64,000 bases of DNA from positions 1,426,001 through 1,490,000 of the forward strand of contig NZ_CP038143.1 of assembly GCF_006542375.1 (NCBI RefSeq), written 5' to 3'. The translations under genes and the position numbers were made by a program. The stretch comes from Oecophyllibacter saccharovorans. GTDB taxonomy: Bacteria > Pseudomonadota > Alphaproteobacteria > Acetobacterales > Acetobacteraceae. Below, in pieces: positions 55,498 through 59,827 of the stretch. The notes below the pieces were generated by a model. That model ran no database searches, had not been told where the DNA came from, and worked only from the letters and a program-made list of their open reading frames with translations. Position 1 is the stretch's first letter. The number at the start of each line of letters is the position of its first letter.

Positions 55498-57411
55498 ATG
55501 AAAAACATCAGCCGTAACGTTGCGATCTGGGTGGTTGTGGTCATGACCGCAATCGTCATGCTGACCGCCCTGCAGCCCGGCGGCAGCCACAAGGCGGTCG
55601 AGAAGATCACCTATTCCGAATTCCTTCATGACGTGAGCGAGCACGCCGTGAAGACCGTCTCCATCCGGGACCAGAACATCTCGGGCGAGCTGACGGACGG
55701 CAAGTCCTTTGCGACCTACGCGCCCTTCGACCCCTCGCTGGTGCACCGCCTGACGGAAGCGGGCGTCGAGGTCACGGCCCAGCCGCCCCAGAGCGACGAG
55801 AGCCCGATCATGCGCTATATCGGCGCTTATCTGCCGCTGGCGCTGATGCTGGGGCTGGGCTTCATGATCTTCCGCCAGATGCAGAATGGCGGCGGGGCCA
55901 AGGGCGCGATGGGCTTCGGCAAGTCGCGCGCCAAGCTGCTCAATGAAAAGCAGGGCCGCGTGACATTCGCCGATGTGGCCGGCATTGACGAAGCCAAGTC
56001 CGAGCTTGAGGAGATCGTCGATTTTCTCAAGGACCCGCAGAAATTCACCCGCCTTGGCGGCAAGATCCCCAAGGGCGTGCTGCTGGTGGGGCCGCCCGGC
56101 ACCGGCAAGACCCTGCTGGCCCGCTCGGTTGCGGGCGAGGCGAACGTGCCGTTCTTCAGCATCTCGGGCTCTGATTTCGTGGAGATGTTCGTGGGCGTGG
56201 GCGCTTCGCGCGTGCGCGACATGTTCGAGCAGGGCAAGAAATCCGCCCCCTGCATTATCTTCATCGACGAGATCGACGCCGTGGGGCGCCACCGCGGCGT
56301 GGGGCTTGGCGGTGGCAATGACGAGCGCGAGCAGACGCTCAACCAGATGCTGGTGGAGATGGACGGCTTCGAGAGCAATGAGGGCGTCATCCTCATCGCC
56401 GCCACCAACCGCCCTGACGTGCTGGACCCCGCTCTGCTGCGCCCGGGCCGCTTCGACCGCCAGGTCGTCGTGCCCAATCCTGACGTGAGCGGGCGCGAGA
56501 AGATCCTGCGCGTGCATATGAAGAAGCTGCCTCTTTCCTCGGACGTTGATCCGCGCGTCATCGCCCGCGGCACGCCCGGCTTCTCGGGCGCTGACCTTGC
56601 CAACCTGGTCAATGAGGCCGCGCTGTTCGCTGCGCGCGAGGGCCGCAACAGCGTGACCATGCACCAGTTCGAGAAGGCCAAGGACAAGGTCATGATGGGC
56701 GCTGAGCGCCGCTCCATGGTCATGACCGACCAGGAGAAGCGCACCACCGCCTATCATGAAGCGGCCCATGCGATGTGCGCCTATTATTCAGAGGGCAGCG
56801 ACCCCATCCATAAGGCCACCATCGTGCCGCGCGGCCAGGCGCTGGGCATGGTCATGACCCTGCCTGAGAAGGACAACATCTCCTACAGCCGCAAATGGTG
56901 CCTGGCCCGCCTGGTCACCGCTATGGGCGGCCGCGTAGGCGAAGAGCTGATCTTCGGCCATGAGGAGGTGAGTGCCGGGGCCTCGGGCGACATCAAGGGC
57001 GCCACCGACATCGCGCGGCGCATGGTCTCGCAATGGGGCATGAGCGACAAGCTGGGCATGGTTGCCTATGATGACCGCGAAGCCATTTCCGGCCGCACGG
57101 CCCAGGAAGTGGATGAGGAGGTCCGCAAGCTGGTTGACGAAGCCTATGCCCAGGCCCGCCAGCTGGTGCTGACCCATATCGATGACCTCCACCGCCTGGC
57201 CGGCGCTCTGCTGGAATACGAGACGCTGACCGGCGATGACGTGGCGCGGATCCTGCGCGGCGAAGAGCTGGACCGGCGCGAGGGGGAAGTGGAGGTTTTC
57301 AGCGGCCGCCGCGGCTCCGTGCCGCCGTCCGGCACGCTGGAGGGCTCTGCGCCGCCGCGTCTCTCAAAAGGGAACGACGACGGCTTTCCGGCCGGCACTC
57401 AGCTGGCCTGA
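55498..57411 (+). CDS. ftsH: Membrane-bound ATP-dependent zinc metalloprotease FtsH
   Basis: A 637-residue AAA protease. Two membrane segments (about residues 9-24 and 100-120) flank a periplasmic domain. Then come Walker [14 protein letters not shown], Walker [12 protein letters not shown], the second region of homology [17 protein letters not shown], and the zinc site YHEAAHAM. It degrades misfolded membrane proteins and controls LpxC and sigma-32 levels in relatives. A GAGAGAAG site precedes the ATG. Confidence 0.98.
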
Positions 57412-57483: not shown

Positions 57484-57604
57484 GGAGAATATGTAGGGGG
57501 TGGGAAATTTTCCGGCCTAGGGCGCGACGGTGTTGCCAAACCGGGCCCTGCCGTCCGATAAGGTGCCGTTGGGTTGTTTGAGGGGCAAAGTGGGGAGCAC
57601 GGCA

Positions 57605-58990
57605 ATGGGAAAGGCGGGCAGTCAGGTGGGGGAACCGGTGGGCGAGCGGGCGTATTTCGGCACGGACGGGATCAGGGGCACGGCCAATGCCTGGCCCATG
57701 ACGGTGGAAGTGGCCCAGAAGCTCGGCCAGGCTGCAGGGCTGTATTTCAGCCGGCGCCAGAACCGCCATACGGTCGTTGTGGGCAAGGACACGCGGCTTT
57801 CAGGCTATATGATCGAATGCGCGTTGGTGGCGGGGTTTCTCTCGGCCGGCATGGATGTCACGCTGGTCGGCCCTCTGCCCACGCCTGCCATCGCCTTTCT
57901 GACCCGCTCGCTGCGCGCTGATCTCGGCGTGATGATCTCGGCCTCGCACAATCCCTATACCGATAACGGCATCAAGCTCTTCGGCCCTGACGGCTTCAAG
58001 CTTTCCGACGCGGTTGAGCTTGAGATCGAAAATCTGATGGGCCAGGACATCTCCGCGCGCCTGGCCACCCCCGACCGGATCGGCAAGGCCTCGCGCCTCA
58101 ATGACGCGGCAGGGCGCTATATCGAGAACGTCAAGGCGTCCTTCCCGCGCGGGCTGCGACTGGACGGGCTCAGGATCGTCATCGACTGCGCCAATGGCTC
58201 GGGCTACCGCGTGGCGCCCGCAGCCTTGTGGGAGCTCGGGGCTGAAGTCATCCGCCTCGGCTGCAGCCCTGACGGGCTGAACATCAATGACGGCGTGGGC
58301 TCCACCCATCCCCAGGCGTTGCAGGAGGCGGTGCGCAAGCACGGTGCACATTGCGGCATCGCCCTGGACGGCGATGCGGACCGCCTGCTGATGGTCGATG
58401 AGAACGGCCAGATCGTTGACGGCGACCAGATCCTGGCCCTGATCGCCACCTCCTGGAAAAAGCGCCGCCAGCTCAACGGGGCGGAAGTGGTGGCAACCGT
58501 GATGTCCAATATGGGGCTGGAAGCCTGCCTGCGCGAACACGACCTGGAGCTTTACCGCACGGCGGTGGGCGATCGCTACGTGGTGGAGAGAATGCGTGCA
58601 GGCGGCGGCAATCTGGGCGGCGAGCAGTCAGGCCATGTTGTGCTGTCCGATTACGCCACGACAGGCGACGGGCTGCTTGCCGCCCTGCAGGTTCTGGCTG
58701 TCATGGTGGAGACAGGCGCGCCTGCAAGCGAGGTCTGCCAGATGTTCAGCCCTTATCCCCAGCTGCTCAAAAACATCCGCTACCAGGGTGCGAACCCCAT
58801 GCAGCACCCTGATCTGCCGGCCATCTGCCAATGGGCCGAGGCGCGGCTGGGCGACAGCGGGCGGCTGGTGCTGCGCGCCAGCGGCACGGAGCCGCTTATC
58901 CGCGTGATGGTTGAAGCGCGGGATGAGGCGCTGGTGCGCGAGGTGGTGGAAGAAGTCAGCCAGCGCATCGAGGGGCTGATCACCGCCTGA
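57605..58990 (+). CDS. glmM: Phosphoglucosamine mutase
   Basis: A 461-residue enzyme that converts glucosamine-6-phosphate to glucosamine-1-phosphate for UDP-GlcNAc. The phosphoserine loop is [17 protein letters not shown], the metal loop [12 protein letters not shown], the sugar loop [12 protein letters not shown], and the phosphate-binding loop [14 protein letters not shown]. The ATG at 57605 follows GGGGAG and gives the expected FGTDGIRG start region; a 75-base upstream extension is unlikely. Confidence 0.96.
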
Positions 58991-59053: not shown

Positions 59054-59812
59054 TCAGTGCATGACCTTCACGGCTTTTTTGGTCAGGGTCGGCAGCGGTA
59101 CATCGCGCGCTTCTTCATGCTCGGCCGTGGCAGAGTGGGGGTCTTCATTGCGGATGACATAGCCGCGGCCCCAGACGGTCTCGATGAGGTGGTCGATGCC
59201 GAATTTCTGCAGTTTGCGGCGCAGCTTGCAGACGAAGACATCGATGATCTTCATTTCCGGCTCGTCAATGCCGCCATAGAGATGGTTGAGGAAGGTGTCC
59301 TTGGTCAGAACCGTGCCGCGGCGGACGGCGAGCAGTTCGAGAATGGCATATTCCTTGCCGGTCAGGCTGAGGGGCGTGCCGTCAACTGTGGCCATGCGGG
59401 CCTCGAGGTTGAGCTCCAGCGGGCCGAGATGCAGGCGGGGCTCGGAGAAGCCGCGCGTCCGGCGGAACAGGGCCTGCAGGCGGGCTGCCAGCACTTCGCG
59501 GTCATAGGGCTTGGTGACGTAATCGTCAGCGCCGGCCGAAAACGCGCTCAGCTGAGCCTCAGTGGTGACAACCTCCGAGAGCACGAGCACGGGCAGGTCG
59601 ATATGCGCCCGGCGCAGGCGCTTGATCAGGCTGGCGCCGTCACAGTCTGCCAGGGCCATTTCAGTGATCAGCAGATCGAAATCATAACGCTGCAGCATGG
59701 TCAGGGCTTCAGTGCCGGTAGAGACGGCTTCGATCTGACAGGCCGTGGGGCGCAGCGCCTTGGTCAGGGCTGCGGCAGCTGAAGGATCGCTTTCAACAAT
59801 CAGGATAAGCAT
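59054..59812 (-). CDS. ctrA: CtrA-like response regulator with Glu at the phospho-acceptor site
   Basis: A 252-residue OmpR/PhoB-type regulator closely resembling CtrA, the alphaproteobacterial cell-cycle master regulator. The DNA-binding half keeps CtrA hallmarks: LTGKEYAILELL, TKDTFLNHLYGG, DEPEMKIIDVFVCKLRRKL and ETVWGRGYVIR. The receiver half keeps the switch Lys in DDYVTKPYD. The phospho-acceptor, Asp51 in Caulobacter CtrA, is Glu51 here (ITEMALAD; codon GAA on the reverse strand at 59660-59662), and the acidic pocket reads ESD instead of EDD. It may therefore act without phosphorylation. ATG 59812 has GGGAGA upstream. A 25-residue extra tail ends the protein. Confidence 0.85.
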   Translation of the reverse strand: MLILIVESDPSAAAALTKALRPTACQIEAVSTGTEALTMLQRYDFDLLITEMALADCDGASLIKRLRRAHIDLPVLVLSEVVTTEAQLSAFSAGADDYVTKPYDREVLAARLQALFRRTRGFSEPRLHLGPLELNLEARMATVDGTPLSLTGKEYAILELLAVRRGTVLTKDTFLNHLYGGIDEPEMKIIDVFVCKLRRKLQKFGIDHLIETVWGRGYVIRNEDPHSATAEHEEARDVPLPTLTKKAVKVMH

Positions 59813-59827
59813 GTTGGTTTCTCCCAC

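Follow-up and report, generated by a model that had tools for sequence, protein, structure and literature searches.

A natural Glu51 form of CtrA with an apparent pseudo-receiver in acetic acid bacteria

A gene of the acetic acid bacterium Oecophyllibacter saccharovorans is best explained, on the sequence comparisons presented here, as a genuine ctrA, the product of which carries a receiver that has turned into a pseudo-receiver. The protein lacks two hallmarks of a phosphorylatable regulator, namely Asp51, which is replaced by Glu, and an acidic residue at position 8, which is replaced by Ser. A pseudo-receiver is distinguished by the lack of at least one of five active-site residues in a domain with the receiver fold; here D51E and D8S affect a domain predicted with high confidence to keep that fold. 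The gene lies in the 64-kb stretch of DNA that was analyzed (hereafter the window; C1:1426001-1490000), and its host genome, 1.94 Mb in two contigs, is rated 100% complete. The CtrA phosphorelay is essential in Caulobacter, and acetic acid bacteria are known from studies of vinegar, cellulose and the bee gut.

The ctrA gene of the window and its product

The ctrA gene occupies positions 59054..59812 on the minus strand and encodes 252 amino acids followed by a stop codon; an in-frame GTG at 59827, upstream of the start, would add five amino acids. Profile searches identify an N-terminal receiver (PF00072; residues 1-118, 59459..59812, minus strand) and a C-terminal winged-helix DNA-binding domain (PF00486, Trans_reg_C; residues 145-219, 59156..59380, minus strand), the latter strongly conserved. 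The initial annotation called the DNA-binding half recognizably CtrA, and indeed the block HLYGG-DEPE-KIIDVF-CKLR-KL ... WGRGY, which we take to be specific to CtrA, is present and conserved, and the best NCBIfam match is the CtrA model NF045991 at 280 bits, under its own cut-off of 350 bits.

Reading of the gene confirms that codon 51 is GAA (59660..59662, minus strand), so that Glu takes the place that alignment assigns to the phospho-acceptor Asp. The acidic cluster at residues 7-9 is ESD in the alignment (59786..59794, minus strand), with Asp8 changed to Ser, again in agreement with the annotation, which had noted ESD rather than EDD. Three conserved switch residues are retained, namely Ser79 (59576..59578), the aromatic Tyr98 (59519..59521) and Lys101 (59510..59512), all on the minus strand. 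The protein ends in VMH (59057..59065, minus strand) and is without the Ala-Ala end that is usual in ChpT-bearing relatives.

An AlphaFold2 monomer prediction from 41 sequences gives alternating strands and helices in the receiver, with pLDDT values of 83-98 for ten-residue blocks over residues 1-130. Foldseek matches for the predicted CtrA are OmpR/PhoB regulators, and the receiver superposes with a TM score of 0.94 by target and an rmsd of 1.2 on 4qpj_C, a CtrA receiver solved with a phosphotransferase. The predicted monomer shows a retained receiver fold and is silent on the active or inactive state.

Could Glu51 nevertheless be a sequencing error, or the gene a member of another family that sits beside a normal CtrA? 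The NF045991 score below cut-off would fit such an explanation, as would the name of that model (RespRegCtrARhodob), which points to the Rhodobacterales. It is opposed by the conserved CtrA-type DNA-binding block, by the recurrence of E51 in 63 genomes of the family, and by the finding that the window gene is the only CtrA-grade match in its genome, where the other six matches are at most 33% identical. A sequencing error at codon 51 and a second, normal CtrA were accordingly both rejected. Because E51 is present in relatives, neither sequencing error nor chance accounts for it, and we give this explanation next to no weight. None of the three observations that the initial annotation had named as contrary to its reading, i.e. 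a second CtrA with Asp51, a different family or a sequencing error, was made.

The gene converges with a neighbor on the plus strand that resembles a phosphoglucosamine mutase gene (57530..58990; Pfam PGM_PMM I-IV), presumably glmM. A further neighbor is ftsH (55498..57411, plus strand), which served as the species marker for trees. In the ChpT-positive genomes G141, G289, G198 and G022, some 6 kb separate chpT and ctrA, whereas proximity of ctrA to ftsH is seen in many E51 genomes; G338 and G390 are exceptions.

A CtrA ortholog would be expected to bind sites of the TTAA-N7-TTAA type, its own promoter among them. The window holds no exact TTAA-N7-TTAA site and one with a single mismatch (1.21 expected), and near ctrA there are three with up to two mismatches (2.21 expected). 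Upstream of ctrA there is no CtrA box at up to one mismatch, and a promoter scan returned zero hits. In other genomes (L088-L116), a similar site with up to one mismatch does lie upstream of ctrA, at about -127 to -129 in Gluconobacter and at -112 in genus g76; its near-constant position in those E51 genera may come from shared ancestry.

Residue 51 and the phosphorelay in the Acetobacteraceae

The family was sampled as 394 genomes, and CtrA residues were read in 133 of these (65 genus codes), comprising the best matches to the window protein and genus representatives, with truncated G030 and G057 and non-CtrA G088 left out. Residue 51 is Asp in 63 genomes, Glu in 63, Ala in three, Arg in two, and Asn and Ser in one each. 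In support of the initial annotation, E51 recurs among relatives, the 63 genomes spreading over 18 genus codes. The E51 codon is GAA in 47 genomes and GAG in 16, and the D51 codon is GAC in 46 and GAT in 17. Named carriers of E51 include Gluconobacter cerinus, G. cadivus, Acidomonas methanolica and Acetobacter musti; Ala51 is found in Bombella sp. ESL0385, Parasaccharibacter apium and G061, and Asp51 in Roseomonas and the other alphaproteobacterial rows of the named-genome alignment. From the CtrA alignment, five of 107 rows (L035, L037, L176, L181, L191) were omitted as truncated or not CtrA.

A CtrA match at 1e-50 is absent from 48 of the 394 genomes. Two of the genomes, G027 (g28) and G068 (g69), have no match at 1e-30 and G088 (g89) has only a 33% match, such that ctrA itself seems to have been lost in these three. 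In G030 (genus g31), the Bombella-group ctrA (L176) matches only from near residue 92-94 within a 191-aa frame, most of the receiver being missing or out of frame.

ChpT was sought with its profile PF10090, a match being termed strong at E <= 1e-4, and with a family-specific model built from 16 ChpT proteins of Acetobacteraceae, whose true matches score 97-261 bits. PF10090 exceeds its cut-off in 201 of the 394 genomes. All 52 clearly ChpT-positive genomes have both Asp51 and Asp8, and a clear ChpT is missing from each of the 70 non-D51 genomes (32 searched with the family model, 38 with PF10090 alone). In those 32 the family model finds nothing above 26.5 bits, and its weak matches sit in frames of at least 487 aa, bar one of 15.9 bits in a 224-aa frame. 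Five non-D51 genomes give weak PF10090 matches (E 1e-4 to 1e-3); two of these, G008 and G001, have no ChpT by the family model, and G330, G305 and G163 were covered by PF10090 only.

Fourteen D51 genomes have no strong PF10090 match, and the family model recovers ChpT in three of them (G025, G139, G204); because the profile missed these, some of the 38 genomes searched with it alone could hide a ChpT. The 11 D51 genomes that remain without ChpT were all searched with the family model. Seven of them are altered elsewhere in residues 7-9, and four keep EDD (G011, G037, G194, G373), with G037 and G194 about 90% complete. A Fisher test of the association between D51 and ChpT (p 5e-24) treats related genomes as independent and uses the counts before correction by the family model, and is given no weight as evidence.

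In the window genome, neither PF10090 nor the family model matches a ChpT. Its nine PF00072 receivers belong to CtrA, to four other OmpR-type regulators that CtrA matches over their length, to a 486-aa regulator beside NtrY (PF19312) that we take to be NtrX, and, as three domains, to two hybrid kinases. None of the nine is a single-domain receiver, so DivK and CpdR are absent at the sensitivity of PF00072.

The two hybrid kinases, one REC-HK (671 aa) and one REC-HK-REC (715 aa), are encoded by overlapping genes on the minus strand (L192:2392-6484, C1:318.9-323.0 kb). The Caulobacter CckA model at 1e-40 has one match in the genome, the 715-aa REC-HK-REC kinase, whose best PDB sequence matches are 5idj, titled 'Histidine kinase', and 5idm, which is the catalytic domain of CckA. 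This kinase was considered as CckA and rejected. In a midpoint-rooted tree of 31 cores picked from CckA-model matches, from which the REC-HK kinase of the same genome had been removed beforehand, it clusters with 11 proteins from other genomes in which the family model finds no ChpT (support 100/99), apart from a separate clade of 14 PAS-HK-REC kinases of ChpT-positive genomes (100/100). A distant shared origin of the two is possible, given the midpoint rooting. Together, the CckA model at 1e-40 and the tree recognize no PAS-HK-REC CckA ortholog in the window genome. The available part of Brilli 2010 (PMC2877005), in contrast, lists cckA as present in a Rhodospirillales group by best hits, and a kinase of the REC-HK-REC type may be what was counted there.

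The relay genes whose loss the initial annotation had asked about, chpT, a recognizable cckA ortholog and divK- or cpdR-type receivers, are thus all missing from the window genome. Its proposal of a CtrA freed from CckA and ChpT stands to this extent, whereas constitutive activity through Glu51 is a further step that we infer.

Decay and retention in the Glu51 receiver

Glu51 is real, but the loss goes further than the phosphomimetic state that had been proposed for the window protein, in that Asp8 is gone too and position 51 is taken by Ala, Asn, Arg or Ser in some relatives. Position 8 is non-acidic in 54 of the 63 E51 proteins, and Pro55, invariant in 52 ChpT-positive proteins, is retained in just 11 of 63. 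Other residues have been kept in nearly all E51 proteins: Asp9 in 59 of 63, Asp56 in 63, Ser/Thr79 in 63, Tyr98 in 62, Lys/Arg101 in 61 and Pro102 in 63. Among the seven proteins with Ala, Asn, Arg or Ser at position 51, Ser79 is found in three and Lys101 in one.

Column entropies were compared between 34 D51 proteins from ChpT-bearing genomes and 18 E51 proteins, each genus and state contributing a single row. Helix 1 of a receiver docks the phosphotransferase. E51 proteins show rises of 0.90 bits in helix 1, 0.83 around the acidic pocket and 0.86 after residue 51. The increase is smaller in helices 4 (0.36 bits) and 5 (0.39), in strand 5 (0.15) and in the DNA-binding domain (0.14). Pooled, the phosphotransfer side rises by 0.79 bits (trait columns excluded), a4-b5-a5 by 0.33 and the DNA-binding domain by 0.14. 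The rise is greater on the phosphotransfer side than in a4-b5-a5 (p 0.0015 with one row per genus and state, 0.0004 with all rows), and a4-b5-a5 compared with the DNA-binding domain gives p 0.019 and 0.12, respectively, although related sequences are not independent and these p values are a guide only. The a4-b5-a5 surface is the dimer face in OmpR-type regulators (Bourret et al. 2025, PMC12632262). In sum, E51 proteins have mostly lost Asp8 and conservation of the partner-docking side; their switch residues, dimer face and DNA-binding domain have been kept.

These data bear on whether CtrA is still phosphorylated by other means, through acetyl phosphate or another kinase, or at Asp9, Asp56 or a Ser, such that control would persist without CckA and ChpT. 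The genome does encode other kinases, including the REC-HK-REC protein with its CckA-like core, and D9 and D56 are present in 59 and 63 of the 63 E51 proteins, respectively. However, 54 of them carry a non-acidic residue in place of the metal ligand Asp8, and helix 1 is the region most relaxed. From the alignment, we take residue 8 to be the position known as DD2. DD2 is an acidic residue that binds the metal directly (PMC12632262), and its loss should disable phosphotransfer to the receiver. We therefore view alternative phosphorylation as improbable.

Control of CtrA by proteolysis of the Caulobacter type, another suggestion of the initial annotation, is doubtful. The C-terminal Ala-Ala tag serves degradation of CtrA by ClpXP. 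Among complete proteins, 33 of the 44 from ChpT-positive genomes carry it, as against eight of the 61 with E51; the window protein lacks it, and PF00072 finds no CpdR-type receiver in its genome.

The order of events was approached with two trees. In an FtsH tree of 50 genomes made by a quick method, E51 extends from G008 and the genomes of g29 as far as Gluconobacter and the Bombella group, and D51 reappears within this span in G042, G028 and G055. Two g37 genomes on long branches, G036 (E51) and G183 (N51), fall outside it among D51 rows, and may represent a further event or be misplaced. In a CtrA tree of 88 rows from which columns 7-9 and 51 were excluded, a 32-row group (support 81, not starred) takes in every E51 row except one, together with four D51 rows (G028, G011, G042, G055), and a separate group (G063, G084, G021) has Arg or Ser at position 51. 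The one E51 row elsewhere is G072 (genus g73, L334), whose relatives are D51; this genome, 93% complete in about 300 contigs, has no ChpT and an EHD acidic pocket.

On either tree, parsimony counts seven switches between D and non-D (over 45 rows for FtsH). The association with ChpT is clean, but with so few independent events a phylogenetic pair or sign test is unable to reach significance. The step from D to E may have been taken at least twice, in the crown acetic acid bacteria and in G072. E51 genomes of g9 and g29, including G008, have an intact EDD pocket, which indicates that E51 preceded the loss of Asp8 there. The acidic triad is a broken EPN in both G055 and its sister G066, such that the D51 of G055 would resemble a reversion rather than a working acceptor.

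Neutral decay is the more serious rival: once the relay was lost, the receiver would have drifted, with Glu51 as one tolerated state without a role, and CtrA would dimerize independently of phosphorylation in the manner of atypical OmpR-type regulators. In its favor, the position is Ala, Asn, Arg or Ser in seven of the 70 non-D51 genomes, four members of the E51 group have D51, conservation is relaxed at Asp8 and on the docking side, and Foldseek also returns 2hqr, an 'atypical orphan response regulator'. Yet E51 has been held in 63 genomes and 18 genus codes despite a mean pairwise receiver identity of only 53% (one row per genus), and even though a return from E to D is just one base away. 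Furthermore, residues suited to sensing a charge at position 51 persist in E51 proteins and have mostly gone where E51 is absent. On balance, we regard drift without a role for Glu51 as rather unlikely.

The account we consider probable is instead that CtrA is a pseudo-receiver protein uncoupled from the phosphorelay, with dimer formation and DNA binding independent of phosphorylation, Glu51 in place of the phosphoryl group, and output set by amount or partners. Loss of the relay (CckA, ChpT) would have come first, D51E second, decay of Asp8 and the partner-docking face third, and, in some lineages, a further change to A51 last. Glu51 probably stands in for phospho-Asp, judging from the conservation pattern, and would contact the retained Ser79 and Lys101 where the phosphoryl group otherwise would. 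The protein would then dimerize and bind DNA without phosphorylation, and its output would depend on the quantity made, or on other partners, instead of the phosphorelay. A Glu mimic is not required everywhere, since the A51 lineages (Bombella, Parasaccharibacter, G061) keep CtrA. A broader version, in which the whole group fixed a constitutively active phosphomimetic CtrA, dropped the phosphorelay and shifted control from modification to protein amount, is one that we entertain only tentatively.

Comparison with known systems and implications

The window protein resembles canonical CtrA in domain order, DNA-binding block, single copy and a receiver that superposes on 4qpj_C. It differs in having Glu51, Ser8 and no Ala-Ala end, and its genome differs in having no ChpT, recognizable CckA or single-domain receivers. 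The laboratory allele ctrA(D51E) of Caulobacter, which the initial annotation cited as a mimic of phosphorylated CtrA and which is called phosphomimetic in the available text of PMC12186491, has the same substitution at the same residue. Here, unlike in that allele, the change is natural, spans 18 genus codes, and comes mostly with loss of the metal site and of docking-side conservation, and with no ChpT.

Like the aspartate-less receivers reviewed by Bourret et al. 2025 (PMC12632262), the window CtrA is without the phospho-Asp. According to the accessible main text of that review, Glu is the commonest replacement among such receivers, which have often lost the second acidic residue as well. 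It also reports that activation by Glu is only partial in many regulators and that the mimic idea has been disproved in some pseudo-receivers, describes how pseudo-receivers are switched on as an open question, and does not mention CtrA. In the Acetobacteraceae, in contrast to those pseudo-receivers, the D51 form, its partner and intermediates survive in one family.

A degenerate relay in the Rhodospirillales has been described before. The available part of Brilli 2010 (PMC2877005) reports a group without a chpT ortholog, DivK or CpdR, and Granulibacter without ctrA, and that of a 2021 survey (PMC8116508) gives ctrA in 72-82% of Rhodospirillales genomes and chpT, cckA and divL in only 27-36%. 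The absence of chpT, DivK and CpdR is thus shared with that picture, whereas cckA is present in the former account and the CckA-like kinase falls outside the CckA clade here. Neither paper, in its accessible text, looks at the phospho-acceptor; that of PMC2877005 contains neither 'aspartate' nor 'Asp', and that of PMC8116508 does not contain 'Asp51'. A search of open-licence PMC papers turned up no report of the loss of Asp51 in CtrA; chpT loss in the order was partly known.

The family offers a natural series in one well-studied regulator, from D51 with a relay, through E51 with an intact pocket and E51 without the pocket, to A51. With these natural D51, E51 and A51 forms, Glu51 as a source of activity becomes directly testable. 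The findings suggest that many acetic acid bacteria have dispensed with the CtrA phosphorelay while retaining CtrA itself, and in these organisms a well-known on/off switch seems, after rewiring, to run without a phosphorylation signal.
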